The notes below the pieces were generated by a model. That model had not been told where the DNA came from and did not search any database. It saw only the letters and a list, made by a program, of their open reading frames with translations. A stretch of DNA of 64,000 nucleotides from contig NC_064767.1 of assembly GCF_011397635.1 (NCBI RefSeq), positions 6,581,501 to 6,645,500 of the forward strand. The letters are read 5' to 3'. Source of the DNA: Epinephelus fuscoguttatus. Taxonomy: Eukaryota; Chordata; Actinopteri; Perciformes; Serranidae. This document shows, piece after piece, positions 291 through 48,363 of this stretch (positions are counted from its first letter, which is position 1; every line of letters begins with the position of its first letter). Made by a program: the position numbers and the translations under genes.

Positions 291-1880
291 AGGAGACTCA
301 CAAAGTTTGCATTAAGCTACAGCAGCTTGGGTTTGCACTGTGAACTGAGAAAGTGCCACGCAATAAGTATTAGGCCTGTAACATAGCCTACTCCTGTTCC
401 AAACCTCTCAGTTCAGTTTGGGAACAGTCCTTCCTATCAGCATGGACTCAAATGTGAGGAAGTGTAACTGCTCTGGCTCTGTGGTGCTGGCACATGCAGT
501 GAAAGGGGGGGCGTTGTCTTTATTGTAGCAAATGTGCATCAAGTCAGACAGTTTTAGGCATTAAAAAAACCGGAATGAGGCCAATGTGTCCTTCAAAATA
601 AAAGCGGCTTCACTGGCGTCACTATATTGACAACGTACTGATCTACAGTTGTGGAGAGTTAGTAAGTGCTTTTGCTCCAGTATTAAACTTTAGTACCATT
701 TTGAGGTACTTCTACTTTATTTGAGTATTTCCATTCTATGTTGCAGTTAGATGTTCAAAGTGTCTTTATTAGTTGGCCCACCCAGTGGGTAATTTGTTGT
801 GCACGGAAAATTCAGCATTCCAAAACAGGACGTTGCAACATTTCAGATTTAAAGGGCACTAAAACAAAATACATTAAAACAAGTATCATCTACTATCAAA
901 ATAGTATCAAAGTATAAGAACTCCTACAAGTAGCTATCATAGAAGGTCTTAGCTCAGTATTTCAGAAAGAAATACTTTTCACTTCAATACATTTATTTTA
1001 GTAAGTAAAATATTTACTTAACTAAACTACCAAATCTATATAAAGTACTTAAAATTGGCTCTTAAAATAGTCTACTAATATTAATACCTATCCATTAAAC
1101 AGAATTTCCCATTTCAGAATAATGTGTATCATACAACCCTAATTGAAATTATAAGATTATCATTGATGCATTAATGTTTACATCACTTTAATGTTGTATC
1201 TTGTAAAAGTAGGGTTAATTTCAATGTATTTATATAGGCTACTGGTGCTAGGTTTATACATTTCTCCACTGAGGATAATAAGGGCATATCTTAAGTAAGC
1301 CTGTAATAATAAAATGAGTTTAATTGTTGATTAAATTTTGTAAAATTAATATAAATCGCAAAGTAACTGTCTGAAGTAATCAATTCAAATGGAGGATAAA
1401 AGTACAATAACCTACTTCCTCTCGTAGCAAAGTAGGCTATTTATCATGTTCAAGAAATGCGATGGAGTAGTAATGGAAAAGAATTAAGAAAATACAGTTT
1501 TACAGTTTATAGTCATCACAAGCTTCTTGTTTTCACATTACTAGCCCACTTTAAATTATTCAATAGATGTTACCAATCACTGATATTTATATGATTTATG
1601 CTATAGACAAAAAAAAATTTTTTCTTTTTGGTACAGTCACAATTTAGTCTTGAATAATTCCTGTAAAGTCCTGTGCGAATGATAATCACAATATTTTCTG
1701 TCAATCTAAAGGGAAATTACACATCAGTTAAACAGAGAAATATAACAAGATGACCATAATGGAGAGATTGAAATATCAATATAACATAAAATGAATATAT
1801 GAATTAAGAGAATTGGGCCAATAAAATAAAAATTAATTGAGGAAATGAGCAAGGGGCAAAAACATGTTGTCGTTGAGGCT
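291..1880. other. Intergenic AT-rich DNA with one dispersed-repeat copy
   Basis: No gene is seen here. Bases about 655-745 carry a copy of a teleost dispersed repeat recognised by TTTTGAGGTACTT followed by GAGTATTTCCATT; further copies lie near 43490-43640 and 54980-55200. The rest is AT-rich with short A and T runs and no supported exon. Confidence 0.5.
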
Positions 1881-1898
1881 TTTATTTTGATAATCGGG

Positions 1899-1908
1899 AC
1901 CGGAAATG
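1899..1908 (+). promoter_or_regulatory. Candidate GABP/NRF-2 (ETS) site in F6-like gene promoter
   Basis: ACCGGAAATG matches the ETS-family consensus used by GABP (NRF-2), a classic activator of nuclear genes for mitochondrial proteins. It lies about 450 bases upstream of the start codon of the F6-like gene. A TATAAAA string follows at 1984-1990. Neither was tested; the match to the mitochondrial role of the gene is the main reason to list it. Confidence 0.4.
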
Positions 1909-2031
1909 TGGTCGTCTTCTTCTGTGGTTGTTGACACCAGTCTGTGGAGGCTTTACATCGAGAGCTTTATGTAACCGCGCTGCTATAAAAACACAGGACG
2001 GCTTTGCTAAACAAAAATATGCCAACTAGAT

Positions 2032-2055
2032 AGCAAACAAACAAACAAACAAACG
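2032..2055. repeat. (AAAC)n microsatellite in 5' leader
   Basis: Six or so uninterrupted AAAC units lie in the presumed 5' leader of the F6-like gene, about 300 bases before its start codon. Confidence 0.8.
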
Positions 2056-2358
2056 GTCAGACGTCATTCGGCTAATCGGTTCAGGTCGACGGAAGAAGAT
2101 CTTTACCAGCGCGTGCAGATTAGCTAGCTAAATGAGTGCAGTGCGACTCAATATTTGACGTTTTGTGCATTTTTATCAGCTGTTAAAGTATAAATTAGTG
2201 TGTTTAAAGCGATAAAAACAGAGTAACATTGTCATGGTGCAGGACGGAGAGCTTCAGGACATTTAGTACTCTCACACAGAGCGACCTGACATTCCTCCTC
2301 AACGTGTACCAGAGACATACAAACTTATTTTACACAGATATTTTTTAATAAAACAATC

Positions 2359-5300
2359 ATGGCTGCTGCATTGTTCAGAAGAGGAACAGGATTATGTGTT
2401 AGAGTAAGTATATCTCTTGTTTTTAATGTTTGCAGATAACAGGACTTTCATTCAACTGTGACATTGACTTACTCATGACTTTTCAATACATTTATATACA
2501 AACATGAATAACTTACGTCATATGGTGGGTTTTATAAATGCATTTAAGGTTACTTATTGCATGCTACTCAAACTCTGTTTCCTCAGCTGCAAAATGCACA
2601 GTGTAAATCTGCATTTCTCTCAAAGTAAACACTGAAGAGAACAACGTGACAGCATGTAGAAAAGTTCATTTTAGAATGTCATATACATGGTAAAAGTATG
2701 CAGCTGGGAATATTTATATATAAAACCATCATTGACTGAACCATCAAGGGATTTTAGTGGACAAACTTAATATAATGACTATGTAGGAGTCGGTAGTAAA
2801 AGCTTTCAGTGTATTGAATTCCTTAGAATCTAAGTAGCTATTCAAACAAGAAAAAAGTTTGCCATCTGGTGTGAGCATTATCTTGTGCACTTGTGCATCT
2901 CCTAACTTGTGTGTGTGTGCGTGTGTGTCCAGTGCATTCACAGGGAGTTGTGCAGAGTGGTATGGAGGCCGCAAACTGCACTGTTCAGCTCCAAACCATC
3001 AGACAAAAAACAACCACGCAGGACACATATCAGTAAGAGAAACACATCTGTCTGATTTTCTGTCAGATTTTTATTTGTAATTCCTTGATCATCTCCTTAT
3101 TCTATTCATATATTATTCTCTCTGCACCAGTGGAAGAGTAAAAACTGTAAATAGTGGTGAGTAGAAGACTTGCTGCCATGTTGGATTTGCTCTGTACAAT
3201 AAAGTGATCCATTGTCCCACTCATGGCTTTCTCCTTTTAAATTTTATCATCCCTCACACTGGCTGCCAATCAGGGCTTTTAATGTGTCACACACTTAGAA
3301 TTCCTACGGGAGAACGGCGACAAATAGGTTTCCTGAGAAGGTTTTTTAAGTTAAATTACATTTTTTACCTAGAGTTTGCCTCTTTATCAGGAAATGGGTG
3401 CACACAATAAACTGATACAGTCAGTCAAAAATGTATTCATATCATTTTGTACAGGCCCAGTTGGATATTGCAATAATAATGTGTGGTTATCACAAGATCC
3501 CACGGCACGTTTGGATTGGCATCACGGCACACCAGTGTACCACAGCTCACCTTTTGAGAACCACTAGCCTAGACAAGAATGTCAGCAAATTAAAAACTAG
3601 AAAACTTGATCCACTAGATATGAATATTTCCATAAAGCAAATCCAAATATTGCTTTATTGCTAAATCAGACTATCCAAGTATTTTGGACAGGCCTGATAT
3701 TTTTCTCAGTCTGTATTTTGTCTTACTGACAGAGAAAGCCAAGCCCCAGCCAGCGGTGGATGTTGCTGCACTCCTGGAGCAACTCTTCTCCCAGAGCAGG
3801 CCAGGCACAATGCCTCCTGCTGGTAAAGGTCAGCACATTCAGGATGTTGCGTAAAGCTGGGTGTTAAAATTAAGTCTCAGGCACTGAATGCAACCAACTT
3901 AGATTTCCACATTTTTTCTCTGCCGTCACACAGCAGGTGGCAATAATTTGCAGCTGCAAAAAGAGCTGGGTTTGGATTTTGACAGGATCTCTTTAACTCC
4001 CCTGCAACAGTCTTGAAATGAAGATTAATTCTGGGAATTTGTGAGCCCCTTCTTTATCCTATCATATTCAGTGGCACTTTTTCATGTCATGTAAATTTCA
4101 TGGAACGATTTGGACAGCAACATATGAGAAAGCACGACGGACAGCTGAGTTAGCAGACTGTTAATTAATTGAATACCTGAAATGCTGATTAGTTCTGCTT
4201 GTGTCTGTGCTGAGTGGTTTTACTTACCCCTCTTCCCTCATATCCATGTCCTTTTATATCCTCTTCTTTCCTTTTCCTCTCCCCTTCCTCCCACAGCTCG
4301 TCCTGCCAAAGCTTCCTCCATGCCCACCAAACCTCCTGTCGCCTCCTCAGTGAAAGCCTCCACCTCAAAAGTTCCTCCTTTGTCAAAGACAGAACCAGCA
4401 GTCTCTGTCTCTCCTGCTTCTTCTAGCCTTAAACAAGTTGATGCTGATAGTCTTTCCAGTGTGACTCTTCCTACAACCTCAGGTTCCTCCCCAACCAGCA
4501 CAACGCCTGCACCATCAGAAGCAGCTGCAATAGAAAGCAACACCTCTGCTGAAACAATACAAACCAACATAGAAACTGCTGCAGTACAGAAGAACACAGA
4601 GCCAACTGCCACAGTAGAGCCCCTAATAGAAACTACAATAGAACCACCAATAGAGCCTGCCCTATCTGCTGTGGCAACACTAGAAGTTGCTGCTGTTGCC
4701 GAACTTCCTGTGGAGCCAACAGTAGATATTCCAGCTGAAGACTTACAAACCAAAGGCACAGACTCAGGAGTGGTCGATGTCTCCCACATTTCCAAAGAAG
4801 AACCCTTAATAGAAACTACAGTAGAGTCACCAGTAGAAGCCAGCCATGTTCCCGTGGAAACACTTGAAACTAGTGATGCTGTTGTTGAGAGTCCAGTAGA
4901 GCCTACGATAGATGTTGCAGTAGAATTAGCAGCTCAAAAAGTAGAAACCGAAAGCACAGACTCAGGCGTGGTTGACATTCCACTCACTGCAACAGGAGAA
5001 ACCTTAGTAGAAACTACAGTTGAACCATCAGTAGAGGCCAGCACCTCTCCTTTCGAAACACCAGAGAGTAGTGCTGCTGTTGCTGAAGGTTCAGTAGAAA
5101 CTACAATTGAGGCGGAAGCAGTTACAGCAGCTCAAGCTGTACAAACCAACAGCACAGACTCAGGAGCAGTTAACATTTCATATAGTACCAAAGAAGAAGC
5201 ATCAGTAGAAACAACAATAGAACCAGCAGCTGTTTCTGAAGCTACAGTAGAGCCTACAATAGAAACTGAAGCAGCTGACAGCCCTTCATATAGTGCCTCA

Positions 5301-8300
5301 ATCCAAAATGCACAAGAATCTGCACCTTTGCCTTTGAAAAATGAACCTACAATAGAACCCACAGTAGAATCAGTAAATGACACTGTGGAGGAGGGAGTGG
5401 ACGGGTCTGAAGAAATGAATTTAGAGTCTGTGACACTCCATGTAGACAAGGTTCTGGTAGCATCTTTACAAACCGAAGAGCTCCTCCAAACAAAATCTCT
5501 CCTTGATGAAAAAGCAGAGAAAGAGCTGCAAGAGTTGTCTGTCCAGACGGAGATCGAGCACAAAGCTGCAGCTGAAACTGAGAGTTCAAGCGAAGATGAG
5601 AGTGAGAGTGTAACTGATGTTCTTTCAAAATGGGACTCTCTGTCGGAAGACCTTCAAGAGTTAGAAGGACAAAGTGGTACATTAGAGAAAGAGCTGCTCT
5701 GTCATGTTCCTGCAGTGCTTTCCAAAACTCCTGGCCCAAGTTCAGCCTCTGATCCACCTGTAGGAGCAGCATCTTTGCAGATGGAGGAGACGGCAGCTGA
5801 AGCAGAAGAAATGACGCTGGAATCGCTAACTTTAGAACAAGTCACGGCTGAAGTCGGAGGTCTTGAAACCGAAGTCCTGCTGGAAATGAGGGATGCGCTT
5901 GAGAAAGATGCTGATGCACGAGCTAAAGAGGAGAAGATGGAAGATACAGCCACAGTAGAAGATGTTGCTCTTCTTGAGGATGCAACAGAGGCTGAAATTT
6001 TAACTAGATTGGAGTCTATCTCTGAAGCCACAGATGCTTTAGAAGCTGAGACATCTGTTATGCTGGAGGCCATGTTCGGGTCTGAGCAAGGACCAAGCCA
6101 GCCACCTGTCACTTTACTTGCTGACCAGAAACTGGAGCAACAGGATGAAGTGACTGGTCTGAAAGCAGAAAAGCAGTTGGACAAGCAGGAAGGAAGCGTC
6201 TTGGAAGCAATGAGTCTGGAGTCTGTGACTTTGGCTGAAGTTGAGGCGTCCTTGGGAACTCTGGAGAATGAGTCTCTGAGTGAAACTGCAGATTATCTGG
6301 AGAAAGAAGCTGAAATTGTTGCTGGAGAGAAGAGGGTGGAGGAAGAGGACATGGTGGCGTCTGAAGAGACAACTGAGACTGCGAAGACTGAGTCTCCATC
6401 TCTGCCTGAAGGTGATGTTCTGTCTGAAGATCTGCAGATAGACACGCTGATGGAGGACCTGCTCTTTTCCGTCCCTGGGCCTGTGACAGGGGTGACAGAG
6501 GGCCAGATCGGTCAGGAGGTTGTAAGAGAAAATATGTTGGATGGTAAGTTTGACTCGTGAAGATGAAGAGACATTAGGAGAGGCAAAGGTAAGGGGGAGG
6601 TGGTAATAAATACAGCCCTAACTTCAAAGTAGGGCTGCAACGATATGAGATTTTATCACAGTATCAGAGTGAACGTTAATACAAAATTATTATTATCATT
6701 ATCAGTGAATGAAAGAGGGGGGTCTTGTTGAGTCTTGTTGAGTGAATGCTTCATTATAATTGAAATAAGTTGAATATTAGGCCAATCATCTCCAAGCTCT
6801 CCGCAAGAAAGCTGACCAGCATATTTCACAAAATGTTGAAATATTCCTTTAGACTCTGTGAGGAAGACTTTAGAAACAAATGTGTCATGTATTTTAAAAA
6901 CCTGTCAAGGAGAGCTTAACTTAGACAGAAGTTGGTTAAGTGTTCGATGCTTTAGAAAGTGGAATCAGCTCCATGTGTCCTGTTTCTGGGGTTGTTGTTA
7001 CCACAGCAATGGTTGCCGATGGGTCCGTCGACGTTCATACATCGGCTGCAGTGCCCGATGATTTTTCAGCTTCTCCTGCTCTGGAGGAGGTGCTGGAGGG
7101 GCAGGAGGAGGTGATGGTGGAGGAGGAGGAGGGAGCACAGACTGAAACCTTGGGGAATGAAGGTGGTACAGGAACATATGCAGGTAAAAACACTTGCAGA
7201 CACGTGCAGATACACACACAGTCATAGGTCTTATCGGACAATTGAACAAATGGAAAAGAAAAAGTGACTGCTGGTTTGTCTGTTTCATTAACTTACAGAT
7301 TTTTTTAGGTGCAGTCCCACAGTTCTGATGTTGGAAAAGGTTTCAGATGATGTTAGGCAATTTGACGAGCATGTGCTTAAAGCATACTGCATACATCGCT
7401 ATGTGGTGATAGCCTTTTGTTTTAACTGAATTGATTTGATGTGTTTTTCAGAGTTAGATCCAGTACAGAGACTCTTCCTGGAGAAGATTAAAGAATACAC
7501 CAACATGCGCAGGTAGAGAGACCAAAGAGGTTTCCTATTATATTCACAGGAAATAACCGGAGAAGTTTGAAGGTACCATGAAGCTGAACTTCTCTAGTAG
7601 GTAAAGCTGCAGCTGGAGCAGCTATATGATCCACCCACCACAACCTACACGTCAGGCAACGATCAGCCGTCTTAGCTCCTCGGTGCAGAGGCTGAAACCC
7701 TAGAGAAAATGCTAAGTTAGCGTTTAGCTAACTATAAAATATTAGGTTGAAAGAGAGGTGGTTAAGATTAGAGTAAGGGTAATGAGAAGAGTTAATCTCA
7801 TTGCGTATAAGGGGAATAACATCTTCATGTATACTGAATAAAAGTGGATTATTGCTACGTTTGGCCCTATTTGTTCATTACAACATCGCGTTGTAGCAGG
7901 GTTCAGATAGCTGTCGCGTTGGTGGGCTTGTCTTGTACTAGTCGTGGGCTTGGTTTGTAGGGGTGTGTCATGTATATTTTTATTTTTTTTCAAGGAACAG
8001 TTCAACATTTTGGGACTTAGATATGAGAGTGGTATCGATCTTCTCATCTAACTCTCTTAAAAAAAAAGAAAACTTCCCAAAATGTTGAATGCTGAAGGTT
8101 TTGGAGGCTGTTAGTAATGAAGAAAGATATTTAAAATTGAGCTGCTTTCCACAGTGTACCCCACCTCTTGCCCAATGTCAGTTGGGATAGGCTCCAGCTC
8201 CCCCACAACCCTGAATAGAAGAAGCAGTTACAGATAATGACTGAAGAATGAACTTTTATTGTAAGAGGATATTGTTTTTGTCATGTCTTCTAGATTCTGT

Positions 8301-9635
8301 TTTATTGTGCTTAATTCAAAGGTATTTTTTTCTGTCACTGACTATTCTCATGTAATTATTTTATGCTACAATTCTAGCCAGGTCTGTCTTGTAAAAAAGA
8401 GAATGGATGTCAGGGGACTTGTTTAATAACGATTCAATAACACCGGATACCACAAACTAATCAATATCATTAGATATGAGGTTATTGAACTTTAAATTGT
8501 TTCAGTGAAGTTGAAAACCACAGAAGCTTATTGATTGTCAGGTTTAAACTAACAGTCACTTAAAAAAAATCAATACAGTCAATAACTGATTGGTATTGAT
8601 CCTGCTGGACAGCAGCACAGAGTCCTCAGTATTTGGGCCTCAATGTCTCTCATCTTCTATCTACTCTCCTCTTCCTCTCTAAGGTTGAATGGAGGACTGC
8701 TGGAGGCGGAGCCAGATTACAAAAAATACCTGTCAGAGGAGACCGCAAAGCTCCAGAGACTTTATGGCGGAGGAGACCTGAGCAGCTTCCCTCAGTTCAC
8801 CTTCAACGGTGAGAGAGAGATGCAGTGAAGAGAGAGGTTCGGTGTATAGAGCCCCTTTTATTTGCTTTAGAAACAATCCAGATAATCCCTCTGAAATGTA
8901 GTTAAAGCTTTGAACTGAACCAATCAGCAAGCGTTTATGAGGTGATGATTCATTTAATAGACAAGTATAAAACAGTTGTAATGCAGATTTGTTTTTTTGT
9001 TTTTTTAAGATACAGTATCTATGCTGACAAGATGAACTTCTTAGCAGCCATAACAAGTAGTGCCCAAGGGATAATAAGATAGCACAGATTTATTATTATT
9101 GAACAATAAATAACAAGAAATTGTTGTACAGAAATGCTATAGATATGCTTTAGAAAATCATAAATGGTGTTGACAGAGAGCACTGCCAGCTCTTTGATAG
9201 CCAAATGTAGGGGATCCTCACCAAAAGTGTTCAATAAAAATTATCAGAAGATATATTCTTACCAATCAACATAACCAATCTGCTTGATCAACTTGCTTTT
9301 AGATTAGTGCAGAATATAGGCTAGTTTTTCAGTAGAGATGCACGACAAAAAAACATAAAGAAATCACAATCACATGTAGCTTCATGCATTTTGTATGGAT
9401 AATACGTTTTGTTTGATAATCCAGTTCCTTATGGGGATTATGAATTGTATTTTTACCTCTGGAACATGATGTTTCAGCTCTGTAGCACTACAGCTAATTA
9501 ATAGACATTTTCACTGCACAGACTCATTAAAATATGTACAGCGACAAAAGGAAAATAAATATGTTCCCAAATATGCATTAAATTACTTTTGCTGTTTTCC
9601 CTTTAGACCCCGATATGGACCAGGACTCTAAATGA
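2359..9635 (+). CDS. atp5pf-like: Mitochondrial ATP synthase coupling factor 6-like protein with giant acidic insert
   Basis: Eight coding exons: 2359-2403, 2933-3032, 3733-3822, 4297-6543, 6956-7183 (or 6941-7183), 7452-7512, 8684-8808, 9607-9635. Phases close to give 974 aa (979 with the alternative acceptor). Residues 1-48 are Arg-rich and nearly free of acidic residues (starts MAAALFRRGTGLCVR), as in a mitochondrial presequence. Residues ~904-974 match F6 (ATP5PF) almost end to end: ELDPVQRLFLEKIKEY, then a Tyr/Leu-rich helix, then SFPQFTFNDPD. F6 is a peripheral-stalk subunit of F1Fo ATP synthase on the matrix side. The family is normally ~108 aa; here ~825 Glu/Ser/Thr/Val-rich residues separate presequence and domain. 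Exons 3-5 are phase 1-1, so skipping keeps frame. The F6 assignment is firm; the role of the insert, and whether all exons join in one mRNA, are inference. Confidence 0.85.
4297..6543 (+). other. atp5pf-like: 2,247-nt acidic repeat exon of the F6-like gene
   Basis: A single open exon of 749 codons lies between a good acceptor (pyrimidine tract then CCACAG) and a donor GTAAGT. It enters and leaves in phase 1. The first half repeats blocks such as ETTVEP, VEPTI and TDSGVVD; TDSG copies start at 4758, 4956 and 5154, exactly 198 nt apart. The second half has Glu/Leu-rich blocks of the form M-x-LES-x-TL at 5415, 5811 and 6210, spaced 396 and 399 nt, with weaker half-period copies near 5616, 6009 and 6414. 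Composition predicts a disordered first half and possible short amphipathic helices in the second half. No known domain was recognised. Confidence 0.8.
7985..8095. repeat. Short inverted-repeat dispersed element in F6-like gene intron
   Basis: CAACATTTTGGGA near the left end is mirrored by TCCCAAAATGTTGAA at the right end, enclosing GGTATCGATCTTCTCATC. This layout matches a small non-autonomous element common in teleost introns. No clear target duplication was seen. Confidence 0.55.
8155..8260 (+). repeat. Dispersed repeat tail (GGATAGGCTCCAGC family)
   Basis: The string GGGATAGGCTCCAGCTCCCC, followed by an AAGCAGTTACAGATAATGA-type tail, is characteristic of a very common vertebrate and fish retroelement 3' end. 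Only the tail is visible and it carries no coding potential. Confidence 0.6.
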
Positions 9636-9870
9636 TCCATGACGCCTACCTCCTACTCTTTGTGCTCTTTCTCTGACTCCTCACTGTCTTCCTCCTCCAT
9701 TACCTCCTCATTTCAATTTTACTACATGGGAGAACAGAAAGAGGGAGAGAAGAAGAAGCATAGAAAGTCTGTTTGGGTGATCTGCCATTGAGATAAGGGA
9801 AAAATATATTCCTTACCGTTTGTACTGTGCAATAATGATAGCAATGAATTATATATTAATATTCTATTTT

Positions 9871-9876
9871 ATTAAA
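9871..9876 (+). terminator. Poly(A) signal ATTAAA of the F6-like gene
   Basis: ATTAAA lies 236 bases after the stop codon, in an AT-rich stretch just before a T/G-rich sequence, the usual layout of a cleavage site. The 3'UTR would be about 250-270 bases. Confidence 0.6.
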
Positions 9877-9899
9877 GCAGCATTTTCAAAACAGTAAGT

Positions 9900-12800
9900 C
9901 TTTGGTTCTCTGGTGTTCAGGATGTAAGTGTGTGTGTGTGTTTGTGTGAAATGCAATTAAAGCGTCACGTAGGGCAGTGAAGGCGTGGATGAACAGAAGG
10001 TGGAGCTGTCAGTTCAACACCTCCCTACTTGGCTCCATTTATCTCTGTCTGCCTCTCTCTGTTTCTGTGCCTCACTCTCCCTCGTTCTAGCTCCTACCTG
10101 CATTTGGCTATATTTGTCCGTACATGCGCTCTGTGTCTCTCAGCATCACTGCTGACTGTGTAGTGTGGTGACAGAGGCAGTCTTTGCCAAGTCAAATCCC
10201 CCCTCAGTCACGACTCTGTGATAGAGATAGTGTGAGTCACAACCACAGCCGCACATACACACCAAAAAAAAAATGTGAGCGCAGCACCAAACTACATGCT
10301 AAAAGATGCCCTTTTTATATTTTCTTCTGTCCTTTATTTAGCAGGGTAAAGACACAACTGACCAGTGGTAGAATGTAAAATGTTTTCTAAAATAATTAGG
10401 CTATGTAAAATTGATTGATAGAATAGAATAGAACAAAAGAAAGACAGCTGTCATTCAAATTCATTCTTCTTTATTTATTTTTTTCAATTGAACATTTAAT
10501 TGAATTTACCATGCTACATGTCATGCAGGGTGTGAAATCTTTACAAATACAGAGCAAAATGATAGTCAACCTTGATGAAGACAAAGAAAAATAAATAAAA
10601 TAGATTAGGGGGATATTTATATATAAATAAATAGGAATTATAAAGAATAGGTTAATGAATTAAAATACCAGGCATACAAAATTTGACAAACTGGAGCAAA
10701 GAAATTGAGATCCAAAGCAAGGACCATAATTCAAAACAAGTTTTGTGCGATAGTGTGAAAATCAACACAGTAGATGTCTTGAAATCCTGCTATAGTGACG
10801 AGAAAAACTGCTTGAAGTCATTTATAAATGAGCTACAGGAGGGCTTGGGACAATAAATAGGGTCAGATGGGGTAAGATGCCCCCACTCCCTTAATTACTC
10901 TCCTAACCAATATATGGCACTAAGTCAACTCTGAAGACTTGTGGTTAATGGCTATGCTACAGTGAACAGTGACATTTCATCTGAACTGCTGCATTCTTTA
11001 GATTTATTCCACCACAACTGTTTTAGGGTAAACTGATCTTTTATTCACTGACAAATACTGATATATTAAGTTGTACATAAAATGCTGTGATACATATCTC
11101 TAGTCCATTTATGTTTTGTTCCACTAGTACAAGTAACAAAGTACCCTCTTAAAGATTGCTAGATGGTGTGAATGCAATACTACATACTGTCCCCACTAGG
11201 ACCATAACTGAGACAAACCAGCTGATATACACCACAGCAACAGTGATCCTAGAGATGCTGGGCTACAAGATGAACACGATGAGCCACAAAGAGCGTTAAT
11301 ATATATGTTGAGAGTAAAAATGTAAAGGAAGACCAGGGCTAGGCGACCTGTGGCTCCGGAGCCACATGCGGCTCTTTAGCCCCTTTCCATTTTTTTTTTA
11401 GCATTTTAATTTTTATTTATTATTTTGTTGGCCTAAAGAAATTCTTACATTCCTTAATTGTAAAAATGTGAAGCCTATGCAGAGACATTTTGTCAACTAT
11501 GTCTGGCACCTTTTCCTCTAAATGTTGCTGAGGTCATGTCTAAATGAACCTTAGTAGTGGTGGTTAGTCTTGAATCTCCCTAGTGAGGTTAGCTATGTGC
11601 TCCAAATCCAAAATCTGTGTTACCTTCATAATAAGACTCAAACGTGTTTTGCAGCTCCGGACAGATTTTTTTTTTTTTTTTTTAATTTTTGGTCAAAAAT
11701 ATAGTGAAGGTTGCTGACCCCTGTGTTATACCCTTTGAGACAAGACACACCTCAGAAAGGGGGTTATAAAAACTCCAGGGACATCCTGCCGCTAAATATT
11801 ATTTAGTCAGATTATCTACAGTCATGTGATTTTATATAGTTCATATCTACATATAGTAGTAGTATAGTATTGTAGTTATAACAGCTTGCTAGCAATTATT
11901 AGCATTGCTAGCAGGAAGACACCCTAAAATCAAAACAAGTAGCCTAAAGGAAAGGCTAAAAGGCCTCTAGATAATCCATCAATGGGTCAGGGTTAGGAGT
12001 TTAGTTTGTTTTATTTAGTTAGATAGCTTGTTTTGTAGCACGGGGTCATCTTGCCTCAGTAGTGGGACAAGATGCCCCAAGGTTTTCATTTTTGTGCATT
12101 TACATAGAAGAATGTGCATACATTTGGCACATGTACCAATTTATTTCTCCCAACAGTGGGTTGGTTGATGCATCGTGGTCTTCATGTACATACTAAAATC
12201 CTAGGAAATAAACATAAACAAAGACCTAGACTGTTAATTTAGTTATATTATTGGGGAAAATATCCATTTAAAGGTCCACTAGTTTAACTTGGAAGGATAC
12301 TATACATAAAACCAAGATTACTTAGATAGATGGGAAAAGTTTGTTGAAGCTGAGGGGTGGTGAGAACAGATATGAGGCCTAATTTAAAACAGTGACTGGT
12401 CTCTATTCTAACCTCTACAGGAATGCCTTTTTTTTCTTTTCTGTTTTTTGTTTTGACAACTCGTTGCGGTTGAGCTAGTTTGGAATATTGTTATATGAAG
12501 TTTTTATTGCATGACTATTTGTCCTTGTGTTGTATGAGGTACGTTGTTTAGTTTTTGTCTGGTTTTTTTTTCTGTTTTTGTGATGATATAGTAATGCTAT
12601 TTGTTTGTGTATTGGTTGTGTATTATGTAATCACCACCTCCTTACACCAAACTTCATTTCTAAATGCAAAAAGGAAAGAAAGAAAGAATAAATAACATTG
12701 CAAATGAGAAAGAAAAGAGAGAGGAAAAGGGAAAAGATCTCCACTAAGGGTGGTGGTTGGATTTTAAAAATAAAAGTCATATCATTTTTTTTTTTAATTG

Positions 12801-13000: not shown

Positions 13001-13313
13001 GATTCATTCAATTCCAGCTGTGTTGATCAGGATGCGCTTGGTGGCCCTGTGGTGACGTCACCCACTTTAGGCGGTCACTCAGATTGCCTGCACAGAATAC
13101 CGGCGTGCATGCGCGCGCGTTTGTGTGTATGTGTGTGTTTTGTCCTTCAGTGTAAAGCACAGCCGCACGCGACCCCCTCTGTTGCCTGGTCAGCTCGTCA
13201 CACACTTTTTTTGGGATGCTCATTCAGCTTCACAGTAACGACAGCACCAACAGTCGCTGCTAAACTGCTATTTTTATTGTTTGTCCGCGCGTGTCTGTGT
13301 GGGGCTGCACGCG

Positions 13314-13384
13314 CCCCCCCCCCCCCCCCACACACACACACACACACACACACACTCTCTCCCTCTCCCTCTCCCTCCCCCCCC

Positions 13385-13415
<31 letters not shown>

Positions 13416-13420
13416 CCCCT
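13314..13420. repeat. C-tract, (CA)n and (CT/CCCT)n compound microsatellite in pdxk promoter
   Basis: A run of about 16 C (13314-13329) is followed by about 12 CA units and then 65 bases of almost pure C/T. The tract ends about 235 bases before the pdxk start codon. (CA)n can adopt Z-form, and the homopyrimidine block has mirror symmetry suited to triplex DNA. Confidence 0.85.
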
Positions 13421-13508
13421 TCATCACACACTCACTGCACATCACCCGCTACAACCAACCACCACACGCGCTCACACACACCGCCATCCTGCGTGTGCCA
13501 CACAGCTG

Positions 13509-13526
13509 GTTAGCTAGCTAGCTAAC
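13509..13526. promoter_or_regulatory. 18-bp perfect palindrome upstream of pdxk
   Basis: GTTAGCTAGCTAGCTAAC reads identically on both strands and lies 130 bases before the pdxk start codon. It may be a protein-binding site or a chance product of the GCTA run; no factor is assigned. Confidence 0.4.
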
Positions 13527-27237: not shown

Positions 27238-30200
27238 TGAGAATCACATGCCTTATTTCCTTTTGTCTGTGCCATAGTGCATGGCAAAAGTCACATGGAC
27301 TAATAAGATGCTTCTGAGTCATGCTGGTAGAAAAGAGTCATAACTCCAGTTTCTGTAACTTTATCCAAAACAAAGGACCATTTTGGTGTTTGGATTGAAT
27401 GTTTTTGCACTAATTTACTTTTGTACCGCTGAGAAACATCTGTGGAAAAGCCAAATATACAAATCAATCTAGATCCTTTAATTAAGTAAAAAAAAAAAAA
27501 AAGTAGCAATACAACAGAATAAAAATACTATTTTTCACGGAGTTGTGTTTAAGTTATGTTTAAATTGAGTGTTACTCATCAAAACACATTATGCTTGAGC
27601 TTTATCAAATATGTTAAATGCATTTTCCTCCCCATAAAGAAGTTTTTAAATAGTAATTTAAATCCTGCATTGTTTACATCCACGTTTATAAGCTTGTAGT
27701 CTTGTCTTTCTTGGCGTATCGCGGCATGTTACCACCACCTGTAGATCACTGGATTAGTGTGAAACTATTGGCAGGAATGTGTATCGCATCGCAAGACAAA
27801 CAAAACAGGGACCCGTTCATAGAAAAACAGCTCCATAGTGCTACTAGAGGTCAAAAACTATCACCTCATATATAAGCTGTTGTCTTGTAGGTAAATATTA
27901 ATCTTCCCTCAGAGGACAACCAACATGTTCAGACATTTCTGTTATTTAATGCACCAACTGAAATGACAGTGTCCTACTCTGCCAAGACAAACAGAATATA
28001 ACCGAATAGTATAAGATTGAATGTTTTATCATGATGCTGGAGCACAAGGGTTATGATGTGTGCGTCAGCATCCATAGGGGTTGTTAATGTGCACATACAC
28101 AGTACGTGTGTCTGTCTGTGTTCATGTGCCACTAGAAAGGTGTAGAGTCAGCAGTTTGGCAAACACAGTAACTCCTCTCCTCTCTGCAGGTTATTCTCAT
28201 TGGAAAGGCCAGGTGTTGACAGCAGACGAGCTCCACGTTCTTTACGAGGGAATCAAACTGAACAACGTACATCAGTATGACTATGTTTTAACAGGTGAAT
28301 GCCCTACTTTTATTTTTCACTTATATACTGCTGTAATTGGAGTACTAAACTTAGTTTTGCTGTTTTGAATTGTGAAGAAAACTTTTTCTTGCATGCCTTC
28401 ACGTTAAATGGAGAATCCAAAAAACATTCTTCATGATTTGAAGTAAACAGGGTTCACACGTAACAGCAGCAAAACTGTATAAAAACATCTGTTTACAGAC
28501 TCTCACTACATATGCAGTATAATCCAAGTCTCATTCATCCAGTCTTACGCTCAGCGCTTCCCAAACACATGCATTTTCGCCAAAACTTTACAGTATGAAA
28601 CACTTCGGCCCTATGAGTAGCAAAGATCTAATTTCATTAAATAACGTGCATTAATGTTCCCTCAAGACTCCTTAGACATCTCTACATCTTGCTTAACTGA
28701 CAATTTAATGTTATGTAATCCTCATAAAGTACAAAAGTTTTAAAATAATGACCACTGTAATGTCGTATTCAGGGTATACCAGAGACACATCCTTCTTGGA
28801 GATGGTAGTGGACATTGTTCAGGAGCTAAAGAGGGCCAACCCCAACCTGGTGTATGGTAAGTAACCACATGGTTTCATTTATTTTATTCTAGAAATCTGT
28901 TTTCCAATAAAGGCACAGCCAAAATAGCACTTACAAGTCACACATAATATAAGTAGGACATGAATTATTATTTGTCTGAAGACAGAGTTTAGTTTGAGAG
29001 CTGTAAGTTACGGCCTTTAATGTGCTGTACTGTTGCACAAGAAATAAATGCATCATCTGTTGTTTATTCCTCCCACCTTGAGCTAACTTTAGGGTAATGC
29101 TACCTAAAGGTTAATTGATGCAGTTTGGCTAATGTGCAGCTTTTGTTGCATCAGTGGAGCTATGACACAGCTGCTTGTACAGTGGGGATCTACTTGCAGA
29201 GTCTAAAAGCTTTCTGACAATATTGTACAGTAGTGTCGAGCATTAACAGCAATTTGTTGAGCGTAATGTTCAGCAAATGTTTTTTTCCTCAGGTCACTAC
29301 TATAAATGCTGTGTACTTATGCTTCTTAGTACTTTTAAGGGTTGCATGACTTGCCAGTAACAAAGGTTTCAATATTTAAAGTGATGTTTTTGACCAACAA
29401 CCCAGATTCAGTTTTTAAGCTCCATTTAATCATCTGGCTCATTCGCTGCTAGATGCTCCATCATGTTCACCAATTACTAACTGTGCCTGTCTGCTGTTTG
29501 GTGTTTGGCAGGTAGCATGTGGTGGCTGTTTTGTTGTTGTTGTTGTTTTTTTTTTTGTTTTTTTTTTAGAGTTTTTGGATGAAAAGATCTGCCTGCTGTA
29601 GCTGGGTTGATGAAAGTAGATTTTGCTATGAGCTAAAAGAGGCTGAAAAGCTATAGATCTGCCAGGCTGGGTAATAAATCTCTGTGGGTTTGTTCCTTAG
29701 AGTGACCTCTTTCACAAAACTTAAAATCATTCGATCCATTGTTGTCATAAAAATAAGAATTAGTGGAGCTTTAATATAAAACGACTCTCATTCAGCAACT
29801 TAGGCCCATGATGAAACACAAGATTATGTGGGACAATGAAACAAAATCCCCTAACAGGATCAAATTAACAGTTAATATTATAAACTTTAAAGTGATAATC
29901 TAGCAAATTTACTCATTACTTTTACACATTAGAAGTCTTTATGTAGCTTAGCATTAATCTCAGAGAAGATCCACTTCACACTGTGGACAACTCTCAGGAT
30001 GCCTCTCTCTTTCTCTATCTAGCCAGGAGGATTTTCATATCATGTTGCACAAATCAGTTTCACTCAAATCAAGCAGCTTGGCCTGCAGACACTGTTTTAG
30101 TGGATATGGTGAAGACCTACTGCCACTGGTCAAAATAATAAGCAACCAGAGGGTGACATGCATCATGTCTTTGTATTGACGTAGTAGCAGTACTTTTTGT

Positions 30201-33200: not shown

Positions 33201-36200
33201 TATTTCACAAAGTACAAATCATCTCAGACTGGTGACTGGCCAATAGAGCACCTTTGGGATGTGGTGGAACGGGAGATTAATATCATGGATGTGCAGCTGA
33301 GAAATCTGCAGCAACTGTATGATGCTATCATGTCGATATGGACCAGAAATTCAGAGCAATGTTTCCAGCACCTTGTTGAATCTATGCCACGATGAATTAA
33401 AGCAGTTCTACGACAAAATGGGATCCAACCCACAACAAGCACGGCGTGCCTAATAAAGTGGCCAGGTATCTTTAGGATCTTAACGAAAATTTTAAATAAA
33501 GGTGGATTTCAGTGTCTGTAGTATGAATTATTTAGATACCAGTATCCATTGTTAAGTTTTAGATCACATTGTAGTGATGGAGAAACAGTGAGATATAAGA
33601 AGCTTTCCATATTTTTCTTTGCTTGCACTGACTAAATGGCTGCATTTAATGAAGAACAGTAACATTATGTCAGAGTATAAGAGATAACTGTGCCTTGTCT
33701 CAGTTATCTCTTCAGCTTCACAGTCAAGGTACTCCATCTAGTGGTGTTTTTATATGCCTGCAGAATAAGATTGAAGGTTTTTCGGTATACTAGAGGCTCA
33801 CCTGACTGTGGATTTTGCCCTTTGTGGCACTTGTGTGTTCTGATAACCAGTATGAGTGGAATTAGGTGTCTTGTTTCAAGGCTTTAATAAAGAGACATCT
33901 TTTGGCCTTTGAGTGTCTATGTTTTTTGTTAATAACTTCATTTTCAGTGTTTCTGTTAGAGTGCTGCAACATTGTGTTTGCTTGTGTTTCAGATTATTGA
34001 CAGGGAAAAACATCAGCACAGAGAAAGATGCCGTAGAGGTAACAGATCCTTCATTATATAATCCTTCTTTTCTTTCTATACATTATTTTGTTAAATAACC
34101 CATTATCATGTTAACATTGTTTGACTTTTCTTATCTCACGGTTTGTATCTCACTCACTGACTGTCTGTAGGTTATGGACCTTCTCCATGCTATGGGCCCA
34201 GACACAGTGGTCATCACCTCCTCTGATTTACCCCCCAGACTGGGAGACCGCTTCCTCGTGTCGTTGGGCAGCCAGCGCCATGGTATGTGACATTTGTGAA
34301 TTACAGTGCATATGAGTTGTTTGAATATATATATTTTTGAGACTTGCCAACTAAAAATAACCCTCCAACATTTTGTGTTGTTTGCTGTGTCATTCAGTTC
34401 GTCCCGATGGCAGCAGGACGACACAGAGAGTTCGAATAGAAGTTCCCAAAGTGGACGCTGTCTTTGTAGGAACTGGGGATTTGTTTGCTGCTATGCTGCT
34501 AGCGTGGACACACCACTATCCTAATGACCTAAAGGTACAAAAATGCCAGGGTTTGAAATTATACTGTGGCAATGCAACAACAGATAAAATTGCAGATGAA
34601 TTTGATGCAGGGCATATGATTTTGATTTAATTTGATGTATATGTTTGTCTTGATCCATATATGTATGTTTTTTTCATTCTCTGGAGCATTAAAAATGCTC
34701 ATGGTTGCTGACCTAAAGAGAAGGACATGCATACTTTGCAAGTAAAAAAAACATAATTATTTTCAATCTCTCTCTTTCTCAGACGGCCTGTGAGAAGACT
34801 TTTTCAGTGATGCACCATGTCATCCAGAGGACCATTTCGTATGCTCACGGTAAGAGAGGCAGGGCTTTTTATCAACCCCTAAGTCTTTGACTTGGCTCAA
34901 ATCTATCAAATCTATGCTGTTTTTTTTTTTCCCATCAACCAAGATTAACAAGGAGAGCTAAAATCAAATTTCTGTTGCATTTTTATTATGCATTTGATGC
35001 CAAATGTTTACATCAGCAAAATAGATTTGTAGGAGGTTAATGAAAAATAAAGAATGGACAGATAAAATCACTAATATACAGGAACATTGTGGATTTTTGC
35101 GATGGCTTTGATAATAAGGATATTGGTTAAATGCTTAAAACCAATATGCTCCCATATGATCAAATGTTACAATCCACACAGACTCTGTGACACACGCATG
35201 TAATGTGTTTTATTTAACACTTTTTGTAAACGTTTTAAGTATATCTACCACAAATAATCAAGGATTTCTGTTTGTCTGAGTGCTTCCAGTCTAACCGTCA
35301 CACTTTTATTTCCTCTGCCTGCCATGATGGCAGAGACATCAATAAATCAGTAAATTAAGAAGGACTTTTCATCCTGTACACTCCTCCATGGAGCCTCCTT
35401 GAAATCTATTTTTGTCCAGTACATTTCTGATATCATTCAGCCTAATTGCATTTACGTTTGTATAACACTGACGTTTCCCCTGTCACACACTATCTCTGAG
35501 TCTCTGCCGTAATCAATGTGATATTTAAAAATAGCAGGTTTGTGCAACGAGTCCTTGTCTGGACCAATCAAGGGACTGCAGTGTTTCTTGCTCTGCCTTT
35601 TAGTATCAAATCAGTTTGTACCTCAACAGAGGGGTGATGAAAAACAGGATGGAACAGAGCGGTTTTATTGGTATCATCCACAACTTTTGACAACGTAAAT
35701 GCAAAAGTAAACGTTCTAATGTGTAATGAACTAAACTGCATGGTGAAAACTAGGTTTATCAGAACAGTTTTTTACATGTCAACCTGCACCACCTATAAGG
35801 AAGGAAAGCAAAGGACTTATTGGAAAAAAGAAAAACTACGGCTGTAGCTATCATTCCAGGTGGCACAAATGTCAAAATCAAAGCAGCCTGTAGAAGGTTA
35901 TCTGCAGGTTTTAACTGCTGCTACAGGTTCTTTTTATAAACTGAGTTGTATTGGTTTGGCCTGCAGCTCTCAGGATGATAACTGGCTCAGCCTGGTTTGG
36001 GGTGCTTTGCATCAGTTGCACAGTGTGTCCAAACTGTTTTTTACATTAAAACATTTCATAACGTAGCCTTACAATTAATGTTAATCCATATTTGTGTTTC
36101 CATATGCCCACCCCCTACCTACCTACCCCTTTCTCTCTCAGAGTTAGCAGGTCCTGGTCGGAGGCCCAGTCCGCCCCAGCTGGAGCTGAGGATGGTTCAA

Positions 36201-36257
36201 AGTAAAGCTGACATAGAAGACCCTGCTATAGTTACGGAGGCCACAGTCATATCCTAA
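13656..36257 (+). CDS. pdxk: Pyridoxal kinase
   Basis: ATP-dependent phosphorylation of pyridoxal, pyridoxine and pyridoxamine in the cytosol (B6 salvage). Exons: 13656-13736, 22640-22694, 28190-28294, 28773-28856, 31677-31711, 32203-32288, 33993-34038, 34171-34282, 34398-34534, 34783-34849, 36142-36257. They sum to 924 nt, 307 aa plus stop; human is 312. Start [19 protein letters not shown] and end [11 protein letters not shown] are family signatures. The ribokinase-type anion-hole motif [13 protein letters not shown] is intact, with catalytic Asp at residue 229 (human Asp235). VCDPVLGD keeps Asp111 and Asp116. The nucleotide flap after Asp116 is four residues shorter than in mammals. The start has a good context (GCCGCCATGG). 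Intron 1 is 8.9 kb. Teleosts can carry two pdxk copies; which one this is cannot be decided here. Confidence 0.95.
17436..17467. repeat. (ATG)n microsatellite
   Basis: About ten uninterrupted ATG units inside pdxk intron 1. The open frame across it on the other strand is only an isoleucine run. Confidence 0.9.
18715..18870. repeat. GTTAGCATGCTAAC-type dispersed repeat
   Basis: The string AGCAAATGTTAGCATGCTAA, followed by GACATTAGCATTTAGCTTGA and CTGCTAGCATGGCTGTCGTC, matches a repeat very common in teleost introns. It centres on the palindrome GTTAGCATGCTAAC. Copy boundaries are approximate. Confidence 0.6.
19930..20965. mobile_element. TAGGGCTGTGCGATA-type MITE, interrupted by a second element
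   Basis: The left end TAGGGCTGTGCGATA and the right end TATTGTACAGCCTA are imperfect inverted copies, and the A/T-rich flanks inside both ends contain GCGATAAC/TTATCGCAC motifs. This is the pattern of a common hAT-type fish MITE. Its middle is split by an AACCTTTATTTAACCAGGAA repeat (about 20140-20196) and by a further inverted-repeat element (20197-20806). No clear flanking duplication was seen. Confidence 0.55.
20197..20806. mobile_element. Inverted-repeat element (GGTCTAGTGTGTAAGATTTA family)
   Basis: The left terminus GGTCTAGTGTGTAAGATTTA is matched by the right terminus CTAAATACTACACTGAACC read in reverse complement. The body begins GTGGCATCTAGCGGTGAGG. It is about 610 bases with no transposase. 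A second, truncated copy lies near 43100-43195. It sits inside another MITE, so it inserted later. Confidence 0.65.
22695..28189 (+). other. pdxk: pdxk intron 2
   Basis: A 5.5-kb intron with no coding exon seen. It includes a dispersed-repeat copy near 23740-23850 (TTTTATAGACCAAACAACTA and ATTGATTAATGAAGAAAATA, the fish GCAACTAATGATTATT family in reverse), (CA)n blocks at 26749-26771 and 27026-27048, and a long (GT)n at 27174-27232. Short open frames are shadows of these tracts. Confidence 0.65.
27174..27232. repeat. (GT)n microsatellite
   Basis: Nearly 30 uninterrupted GT units, the longest pure dinucleotide tract in the window, in pdxk intron 2. Confidence 0.95.
32880..33475 (+). pseudogene. 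Tc1/mariner-type transposase relic
   Basis: Broken frames on the plus strand spell fragments of a Tc1-type transposase: [20 protein letters not shown], then after a gap [13 protein letters not shown], the signature around the last acidic catalytic residue. This is followed by [22 protein letters not shown] and a terminus CCTAATAAAGTGGCCAG. Frameshifts and stops break it, and the N-terminal DNA-binding part and left terminus are not recognisable. It is a dead element in pdxk intron 6 (32289-33992), in the same orientation as the gene. Confidence 0.8.
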
Positions 36258-46600: not shown

Positions 46601-48363
46601 AGACAGTGATAGAACTAGAATTACCACCTCAAATGCCATCGCGGACTCATATGTAGCAATGACAGCTGACAATGTTTTAAATATGGATGTTGCTGCTAGG
46701 AAGCTACATAATAAAACATGGACACATCTTCAACCCAGCAGCGCAGAAGATCGATACAATCAGCATAGTTTAGGATTAGTGTCACCAATTTAGTATCTGA
46801 CCAAATGTTTTCTCTTCTGTTCCCGAGTTACGATGTTGAATAATGACTAGAAAAGTGTTTTGTTGAGCATTATGATGTCACAGTGAAGATGACCTTTGAC
46901 CTTTTGGATATACAATTTTGTCCTAATTAGCATATGAGGTCTTGAGTTATGGCCAAAAACCTGTTTTTGAGGTCACTGTGACCTTTGAACTCCAAAATCC
47001 AATAAGTTTGTGCCAAATCTGAAGAAATTTCCATGAGGCATTCTTCAGAAATTGTTTTCATGGGATGGATGGATGGATGGATGGATGGATGGATGGACTG
47101 ACAACCAGAAAACATAATGACTCAGACATGAAAATGGACACAAGACTTGTGACTTTGATTGTCACGAACAACAGTCGGTTAATTGTTCCTAGCAACTGTT
47201 ACAGCAGTTTCTATGTCAACTGGCAATAATGTCTACAGTGTGGATAGGTTACCAGTTAGTGACTGGTTAGGGCGAAACAAGACAACATAACCCAACTCCC
47301 AAACTCTCTGTCTAAACAATGAAGCCAGTCAAAATGGCAGCTCAGTCAGATCATGAGGCAAGAAATATCAGATGAGCCTAATAATTCTGTTCCAGCCTTT
47401 TGTCACCTTGCTCAGCAGCGTGGCCATGTGACCCCTGCGTTCCTCAGGTGCATAGTTGATCCAGCGTAGGATGGTCTCAAACACGGCGCTCTCCTGCCTC
47501 ACGTTGAGCTCGTCCTTCTCGATTAAATCTGCCATCTGCCCCACAGAGAGCTGCAGTAACTTCTCAGAGTGCTCTGTGACCTCCTCAAAGTGATGCAGGA
47601 TGTAGAGATAGGCCTTTTGCCTCAGCTCAGTACATTTGTGGGAGCCCGCCAACATCCAGATGTGGACGCAGCTCTTGTAATTAAGTTGCTGCTCCAGGAG
47701 GTTGCAGCAGGCCTGTACAATGCCCTTGATGGCAAAGTGGTCTGCTCCCGCCAGCAGCTCCAGTACGTTCTCCTCCGTCACCACAACAAGGCCGGTGTAG
47801 GCATAGTCTAGAATGAGGCTCATTGTAGTGGGTGACACCTGGGAAAAAGTGTAGACTTGCTGCTCGGATGTTGACGTCTTACCGCGGAAGAGATCTCTGT
47901 GGGATCAAGATTCAGAAGAGTCCATTTAAGTCATAGGAACTGGCTTTTTAAGAGGATATTTCTGTCTTAGCTCTACAATTTCTAAAAGTATTTCACCCTT
48001 TTAGCATTTCAAAACTGATGCTGCAGAACCAGAGATATCATCTTATTTCTACCTTTTCAAAATCTTGCACCTGTTTCCCATAATGCAATGTGACCCCTGA
48101 AAGTTTGGCCAGTCCAAACTGGAGTCCAACTCCAGCAAAGACCTTCAAAACCTCCTAAATCTTTCTGCATTATATTACATTTAATCACATGATAAATATC
48201 ATGAAATGAAATAAATTCAGAATCCACCAGCTCACCTGAAGTACGAGCTGCAGCTGCAGAGGATGACCATGTGGACGTTAAAGTCGACGCCATCGACTCT
48301 GATCACAGCGTCACACAGTTTGTCCTCCAGACGGAGCTCATTAATTGTATTATAGAAGGTCAT
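43693..48363 (-). CDS. klhl10-like: BTB-BACK-Kelch protein, KLHL10-like
   Basis: Five exons on the minus strand: 48363-48236, 47896-47407, 46112-45519, 45354-45205, 43992-43693, totalling 1,662 nt and 553 aa. The BTB domain starts almost at once (INELRLEDKLCDAVI, ILCSCSSYFRDLF). BACK follows, with ELRQKAYLYILHHFEEV and IEKDELNVRQESAVFETILR, then six Kelch repeats from about residue 263, each with a GG doublet and W (AIGGW, CVGGYDG, AMGGCNK, ICGGFNW, VVGGLRE, VVGGLND). The order and motifs such as AERYQPDTSQWTLIAPMHE are closest to KLHL10, a CUL3 substrate adaptor essential in mammalian spermatids. It lacks the N-terminal ~35 and C-terminal ~40 residues of KLHL10. An upstream exon is possible but none is evident. 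Fish have several klhl10 paralogues; which this is cannot be told. Confidence 0.88.
44222..45030. mobile_element. Inverted-repeat element in klhl10-like intron 4
   Basis: The left end reads ACTCCTTTTCCACCAACATG and the right end ATTTGGTGGAAAAGCAGT. These are imperfect inverted copies, with GGTTCTG/CAGAAC-type sequence just inside. The body is about 800 bases with no transposase. This resembles a hAT-type non-autonomous fish element. It fills most of the intron 43993-45204. Confidence 0.55.
46970..46984. promoter_or_regulatory. Consensus estrogen-response element sequence
   Basis: AGGTCACTGTGACCT is an exact match to AGGTCA-NNN-TGACCT, the full palindromic consensus for estrogen receptors. 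It lies inside a dispersed repeat in an intron of the klhl10-like gene. Binding is not shown. Confidence 0.5.
47063..47097. repeat. (GGAT)n microsatellite
   Basis: About eight GGAT units at the end of a dispersed repeat in klhl10-like intron 2. Confidence 0.9.

Follow-up and report, generated by a model that had tools for sequence, protein, structure and literature searches.

The stalk of vertebrate ATP synthase is commonly regarded as built from an unchanging set of small subunits. The locus described here, in a 64,000-nucleotide stretch of Epinephelus fuscoguttatus contig NC_064767.1 (the window), raises the question of what protein is specified by a gene in which a coupling factor 6 (F6) domain is preceded, in the same frame, by a very long insert. 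Eight exons on the + strand, spanning 2359-9635, join without a stop in one frame to give a predicted protein of 957 residues with a pI of 4.08. The exons and their possible flanking signals are as follows.

1801-2358, + strand: possible promoter and 5' untranslated region with a raised CpG ratio, predicted from sequence
2359-2403, + strand: exon 1, start codon and beginning of the presequence-like N-terminus (open reading frame, donor AGA/gtaagt)
2933-3032, + strand: exon 2, remaining Arg-rich N-terminus, phase 1 at its end
3733-3822, + strand: exon 3, 90 nt (30 codons), phase 1-1 cassette
4297-6543, + strand: exon 4, 2247 nt (749 codons), acidic phase 1-1 cassette, pI 4.05
7007-7183, + strand: exon 5, 177 nt (59 codons), phase 1-1 cassette, Lys/Arg at 0/59 residues
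7452-7512, + strand: exon 6, start of the F6 domain (ELDPVQRLFLEKIKEY...), matched by PF05511 and PDB F6 chains
8684-8808, + strand: exon 7, bulk of the F6 domain, matched by PF05511 and PDB F6 chains
9607-9635, + strand: exon 8, F6 C-terminus and stop codon TGA
9871-9876, + strand: possible polyadenylation signal ATTAAA, a pattern match only and one of 17 AATAAA/ATTAAA matches at 3001-11000

The sequence-only reading that drew attention to this locus had joined an Arg-rich presequence, a 749-codon acidic exon, a further acidic exon and a full F6 domain in consistent splice phases, and this framework holds: phases agree at every junction and the frame is unbroken across exons 1-8. Splice sites were scored with approximate splice frequencies and ranked among 4225 GT and 4185 AG sites. 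The large exon has the limits originally proposed, with AG/GT flanks, and since its donor (top 0.12% of GT) and acceptor (top 0.43% of AG) are the best-scoring of the gene, it should be well recognised. The GT-rich acceptor of exon 2 scores weakly (top 21%). For exon 5 the acceptor first chosen, at 6956 (score -2.9, top 30%), gives way to 7007 in the same frame (score 0.1, top 13%), which is better without being strong and is, on sequence grounds, more likely the true start; the exon is then 177 nt, and the protein 957 rather than 974 residues. The insert between the presequence-like start and the F6 domain is indeed long, but its size of about 825 residues needed revision, as exons 3-5, with the 90-nt exon 3 included, amount to 30+749+59 = 838 codons. 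Splice scores were fair to good for a 26-nt exon at 3131-3156 as well, but it introduces a stop and was excluded.

The frame of exon 4 is open for 795 codons. The longest open run reached 198 codons when the window was simulated 50 times with a first-order Markov model, and 181 (+) and 259 (-) codons elsewhere in the real window. Retention of the intron after exon 2, 3, 4 or 5 would bring a stop after 7, 10, 5 or 14 codons, respectively. The start codon lies in the context AATCATGG, and in a CpG profile covering 1401-3400 the observed/expected ratio was 1.14 at 1801-2200, where GC is just 0.40, and 0.19-0.40 in the 400-base windows from 2201 onward. With the gene masked, no second copy of exon 4 or of F6 was found in the window at a blastn E of 0.01 or a tblastn E of 1.

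The C-terminal F6 domain is, by alignment, complete, as had been claimed. Residues 887-949 match Pfam PF05511 (ATP-synt_F6) with an E of 2.4e-20 and 73.1 bits, against a curated cut-off of 27.9, and the best match among PDB F6 chains has an E of 2.1e-18. Aligned to bovine F6, 32 of 64 residues are identical with no gaps, and both bovine helices, 4-25 and 33-51 (PMC4505582), fall inside the ungapped alignment. In the brine shrimp enzyme, F6 residues Q8, F11, L12 and I15 lie at the contact with OSCP and the alpha subunit (PMC12325954); matched by pattern and in bovine numbering, all four, which face OSCP and the N-terminal helix of alpha, are present here. The protein shares with ATP synthase coupling factor 6 (ATP5PF/ATP5J) the whole domain with both helix ranges, the four contact residues and a basic presequence-like N-terminus. 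It differs in that 838 codons in three cassette exons separate the presequence-like start from F6, and in that the predicted long form has 957 residues whereas PDB F6 chains containing the whole domain have 76-108. Coupling factor 6 is a small mature protein beginning at the first helix; the long form lacks this trait, and only a predicted 119-residue form from the same gene fits it.

The Arg-rich N-terminus is presequence-like, resembling a mitochondrial presequence in composition: the first 30 residues hold 6 basic and 1 acidic residue, with a hydrophobic moment of 0.65 (a judgement by composition only). The nearest Lys or Arg upstream of F6 lies 65 residues before the domain, so trimming directly before F6 is unlikely, and a polyprotein cleaved there by the matrix peptidase was considered unlikely on the same ground. 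Because the OSCP-facing residues are retained and no basic residues stand just before F6, we favour a tail that remains joined to an F6 of the stalk type. Trypsin is predicted to yield 18 peptides of 7-30 residues from the protein, 12 of them within exon 4; the one spanning exons 4, 5 and F6 has 71 residues and would probably escape detection if trypsin were the sole protease.

What the tail consists of is best seen in exon 4, which is predicted to have two parts, a disordered repeat half and a helical half.

4299-5405, + strand: first half of exon 4, predicted disordered, with abundant Glu, Ser, Thr, Ala and Pro
about 4605-5277, + strand: tandem 66-residue (198-nt) repeats within the first half, from protein self-match and DNA repeats
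5406-6542, + strand: exon 4 second half, three units of about 133 residues starting at 5406, 5802 and 6201, predicted long helices

In the first half the self-match at offset 66 scores 253, whereas 100 shuffles reached at most 78, and the single-sequence AlphaFold2 model has a mean pLDDT of 40.2. These repeats carry no clear sign of constraint, with dN/dS of 0.66-0.77 and an in-frame pN/pS that overlaps the frame-shifted controls. The second half is modelled in the same way as helices, with pLDDT of at least 70 at 179 of 379 residues; the pTM values of the two models are 0.19 and 0.26. Each helical unit begins with M-x-L-E-S-[VL]-T-L, and unit-to-unit scores of 117, 123 and 111 exceed the 500-shuffle maxima of 74, 84 and 70, while an ungapped match of unit 1 to unit 3 (71) stays within its shuffle maximum of 78. 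Between units, pN/pS is 0.65, 0.57 and 0.52 in frame and 0.95-1.64 in the two other frames, for all three pairs; since synonymous-site differences are higher only in the reading frame, this is a sign that the helical units are translated and constrained. The second half drew a single match from PDB sequences (E 0.6, not meaningful). The Pfam family Uds1, at residues 484-554, was set aside at 17.6 bits, below its cut-off of 28.8. Exons 1-3, 4 and 5 gave no match in NCBIfam, a library built for prokaryote annotation, and in viral and prokaryote collections 0 of 18 and 0 of 279 pattern stretches were confirmed as related loci, as expected for an animal gene.

Another way to view the gene is by its likeness to complex I subunit NDUFV3, which had been offered as a parallel. 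In the NDUFV3 long form a large exon sets a long, predicted-disordered stretch between the mitochondrial presequence and the complex-binding C-terminus (PMC5293009; PMC8762328). The two genes share the placement of one large in-frame exon between these parts (here exon 4, 2247 nt, phase 1-1). They differ in respiratory complex and in C-terminal domain; the NDUFV3 exon has a conserved string of ten serines, whereas serine runs in exon 4 reach three at most, and half of the large exon here is predicted helical, with three repeated units. Pfam includes an NDUFV3 model and the PDB includes NDUFV3 chains. No sign was seen that the N-terminal exons are homologous to NDUFV3: the Pfam matches at E up to 1 included no NDUFV3 family (only ATP-synt_F6 and the sub-threshold Uds1), and a PDB search with exons 1-3 returned no NDUFV3 chain but five weak matches, all to EAF3, with E of 1.3-1.6. 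Judged by sequence, then, the parallel holds as one of architecture, not of homology. Among the literature matches listed, from a search whose scope stopped short of supplementary tables and most subscription journals, none described a long F6. The gene had also been taken for a paralogue because a GABPA neighbour was absent, an argument that is weak here, as the upstream side extends beyond the window (only 2.36 kb 5' of the ATG lies inside). Passages of an OXPHOS survey of two tilapia genomes leave ATP5J unnamed among the duplicated genes (PMC11900210), a point we counted against the explanation favoured below; the gene may be a paralogue or the sole F6.

The explanation we favour, at about an even chance of being right, is that this is one gene, encoding a mitochondrial F6 of the peripheral stalk whose N-terminal tail, over 800 residues long, stays permanently attached. 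The presequence would be removed after import, and the F6 domain would take its normal place in the stalk, held there by the residues turned towards OSCP and the N-terminal helix of alpha. The tail would then exit the stalk beside OSCP, at the F1 crown. Its disordered, repeat-rich stretch, the first half of exon 4, would provide a flexible spacer, and the three constrained helical units would be binding modules keeping a partner near the enzyme; candidate partners are another ATP synthase, a regulator or some other matrix protein. With phase 1-1 shared by exons 3-5, any of them could be skipped without loss of frame, and exons 1-2-6-7-8 joined directly leave an open frame for a predicted F6 of 119 residues. 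A tail-less F6 from the same gene is thus possible, and the ratio of tailed to tail-less F6 may be a point of control. If the long form is made, its tail could make an anchor or a regulator of F6 itself.

The same skippable exons are the basis of one alternative, which we regard as improbable: that exons 3-5 are usually skipped, which makes the ordinary 119-residue F6 the main product, and that the long form is rare or confined to some tissues, much as NDUFV3-L can be when compared with NDUFV3-S. NDUFV3-L is reported to be substoichiometric (PMC5293009), which fits this idea; the leading scores of the exon 4 donor and acceptor speak against it. Unlikely too, if with a slightly stronger case, is a long protein that is made but works outside ATP synthase, as a divergent F6 copy whose domain is a leftover or binds OSCP or subunit b elsewhere, with the acidic helical tail as the functional part, for example as a matrix scaffold. 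An identity to bovine F6 of just 50% over 64 residues and a tail far larger than the F6 domain, and partly constrained-looking, would suit such a protein, but a gap-free domain that keeps all four contact residues would not.

We give little credence to two genes lying head to tail, one for an acidic protein (exons 1-4 or 1-5), the other for F6 and driven by a promoter of its own. In favour of this reading, retention of the intron that follows exon 4 brings a stop within five codons, and an AATAAA is present at 6605. However, the phases agree at each junction, the raised CpG ratio in the stretch profiled lies upstream of exon 1, and a limited scan from exon 2 to the F6 exons, which left very short or non-coding first exons outside its reach, tried 10 and 13 candidate start exons without finding a basic presequence for the F6 exons on their own; the original view of one gene, not two, is supported. 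Hardly credible is a decaying duplicate or a prediction artefact without product: the weak acceptors of exons 2 and 5 are what it would lead one to expect, but 957 codons without a stop, the 795-codon open run and the lowered in-frame pN/pS between helical units are not.

More doubtfully than for the attached tail itself, we propose that the ATP synthase of this animal, and perhaps of many fish, carries an acidic F6 arm of about 800 residues that exits beside OSCP, links a partner through three constrained helical modules and is switched by in-frame exon skipping: a regulatory or organising arm previously undescribed, with the NDUFV3 long form as its counterpart. Both cyclophilin D binding and the leak channel have been discussed for the OSCP end of the stalk (PMC12325954). 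A long-tailed F6, if real, would show that the stalk can bear a large added arm at this end, and would add to NDUFV3 a second respiratory-chain subunit whose long form comes from one giant exon; the role of such tails would then become approachable in a laboratory fish.

The sequence-only reading had proposed an F6 gene with a long acidic insert, and we used a splice model to examine how its parts could be joined. Splice sites were scored with approximate textbook frequencies and ranked against all those in the window (4225 GT, 4185 AG).

Predicted exons of the F6 gene
2359-2403, + strand: exon 1, splice model
2933-3032, + strand: exon 2, splice model; acceptor weak, in the top 21% of AG sites
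3733-3822, + strand: exon 3, 90 nt, phase 1 at both ends
4297-6543, + strand: exon 4, 2247 nt, phase 1 at both ends
7007-7183, + strand: exon 5, 177 nt, phase 1 at both ends; acceptor weak, top 13%
7452-7512, + strand: exon 6, splice model
8684-8808, + strand: exon 7, acceptor in the top 0.53% of AG sites
9607-9635, + strand: exon 8, acceptor in the top 0.84% of AG sites

Joined in one frame (2359-9635, + strand), the eight exons encode a predicted protein of 957 residues, 101.6 kDa and pI 4.08. The best splice sites of the gene are those of exon 4 (donor in the top 0.12% of GT, acceptor in the top 0.43% of AG). The exon order and frame first proposed stand, but the acceptor at 6956 for exon 5 probably does not, ranking at 30% compared with 13% for 7007, and the predicted start of this exon is corrected to 7007. 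Joining exon 2 directly to exon 6 also keeps the frame open, with a predicted product of 119 residues, as do the combinations 1-2-3-6-7-8 (149 residues) and 1-2-3-5-6-7-8 (208 residues). Between exons 2 and 3, a 26-nt stretch (3131-3156, + strand) combines a fair acceptor (top 2.2% of AG) with a strong donor (top 0.24% of GT). If included, it would change the reading frame and the protein would stop after ...THIMEE; it is a possible poison exon.

That an F6 gene carries a long insert is borne out at the level of sequence by the single frame, by a Pfam match of residues 887-949 to ATP-synt_F6 (73.1 bits, the cut-off being 27.9; E 2.4e-20) and by an open run of 795 codons in the frame containing exon 4. 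For comparison, open runs reached at most 198 codons in 50 first-order Markov simulations of the window and 260 in 1000 simulated sequences of 2247 bases matching exon 4 in composition; in the rest of the real window, exon 4 excluded, the longest were 181 (+) and 259 (-). The only other Pfam listing for the protein, Uds1, scored under its own cut-off and was rejected.

The 71-residue F6 domain matches 10 distinct PDB sequences, all named coupling factor 6 or subunit F6 (best E 2.1e-18), from which the present protein differs by its insert. Identity to bovine F6, taken as the stretch shown in the PDB search for 2cly and two other entries, is 32/64 positions with zero gaps; 2CLY is named as bovine, with F6 helices at residues 4-25 and 33-51, in the available text of PMC4505582. 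For the brine shrimp enzyme, PMC12325954 (in part) places residues Q8, F11, L12 and I15 where F6 touches OSCP, the subunit at the crown end of the peripheral stalk, and the alpha N-terminal helix. The present domain has the same four letters in bovine numbering, a cross-species pattern match, and therefore the F6 N-terminus, to which the insert is attached as a tail, should be found at the end of the stalk where OSCP sits.

The alternative is that two genes are present, with F6 having a presequence of its own. We scanned 3033-7439 for ATGs opening a short exon with a phase-1 donor, a search directed at first exons that are coding and not very short. With a strict donor threshold, all 10 candidate start exons in this interval had a negative net charge, and a lax threshold with other length limits gave 13 candidates, none with a basic presequence-like start. 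The scan thus favours one gene, as originally claimed. The CpG ratio, profiled over 1401-3400, peaks at 1801-2200, directly upstream of exon 1. Judged by the cleavage specificity of the matrix peptidase, a cut just before F6 is unlikely, because exon 5 has no Lys or Arg among its 59 residues and the closest basic residue upstream of F6 is 65 residues away. The predicted tryptic peptide spanning the exon 4-5-F6 junction is 71 residues long, and therefore routine proteomics could detect each of F6 and exon 4 but would hardly show that the two are joined.

Exon 4 consists of two unlike halves. Codons 1-369 (4299-5405) contain 66-residue tandem repeats, with an offset-66 self-match of 253 (the highest of 100 shuffles scored 78), and we read this half as probably disordered from a single-sequence AlphaFold2 model (mean pLDDT 40.2; 343/369 residues below 50). 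Codons 370-748 (5406-6542) form three units of 132, 133 and 114 residues, each starting M-x-L-E-S-[VL]-T-L, whose gapped pairwise scores (117, 123, 111) all exceed the maxima of 500 shuffles (74, 84, 70); ungapped, the second-third pair scores 105 and the first-third pair 71, not exceeding the shuffle maximum of 78. AlphaFold2 predicts long helices here (179/379 residues with pLDDT of at least 70) with a pTM of 0.19, so that only helices, and no fold, can be claimed. As a translation test needing no relatives, we compared pN/pS over the opening 43 codons of these helical units, which are short stretches. In frame, the first and second units gave a ratio of 0.65, the second and third 0.57, and the first and third 0.52 (the synonymous distance of this last pair was saturated in a separate analysis of two of the pairs), compared with 0.95-1.64 for the same DNA in the two wrong frames, stop codons removed. 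The 66-residue repeats gave dN/dS of 0.66, 0.74 and 0.77, not clearly distinct from frame-shifted controls.

The sequence-only reading also inferred a paralogue from the neighbourhood, which we surveyed by passing ten hand-picked ORFs through Pfam, a sample that further genes may have escaped; four matched (three BTB-Kelch pieces and one PH domain).

Neighbouring features
28078-28861, + strand: pyridoxal kinase exons, query joined from two ORFs, E 1.3e-26
43696-47904, - strand: BTB-BACK-Kelch gene pieces, Pfam and PDB searches
52422-52571, + strand: PH domain exon, Pfam; PLEKHA3 closest among PDB chains, E 1.8e-20

The pyridoxal kinase gene perhaps extends to 36254 (+); ORF 35982-36254, for which Pfam gave no match, looks by eye like its C-terminal exon. 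A simple-sequence stretch at 13198-13520 holds several overlapping low-complexity ORFs on both strands. In mammals, ATP5PF lies between JAM2 and GABPA. When the window was checked with crude patterns, neither an ETS core nor a strict Ig motif turned up; a single loose Ig match, at 42525 (+), falls within an open stretch of 22 residues. The absence of GABPA is uninformative because it is expected upstream, where the window reaches only 2.36 kb. For two tilapia genomes, the available text of PMC11900210 names SDHB, UQCRFS1, COX5A, ATP5A1, ATP5H and ATP5B as duplicated OXPHOS genes and NDUFA4, COX5B and COX7A2 as triplicated, ATP5J not being among those named. Either tilapia has one F6 gene, or an extra copy was missed or is absent there.

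The closest described parallel to a long-tailed F6 is NDUFV3, as first suggested, where one gene gives a 10 kDa short form and, by inclusion of one large exon, a 50 kDa long form that is substoichiometric in complex I and whose added N-terminal part is predicted to be disordered, its role being described as unknown (PMC5293009; PMC8762328; both in part). The likeness does not extend to family membership: lacking both the NDUFV3 domain and the ten-serine string, the present protein falls outside that family. We conclude that the long acidic insert before F6 is, as far as the DNA can tell, real and unusual. By analogy with NDUFV3, the F6 domain, being complete, would act as an anchor within ATP synthase; the disordered 66-residue repeats may provide a spacer and the helical units binding modules for a putative partner, steps suggested by the predicted disorder and helices and by the constraint test.
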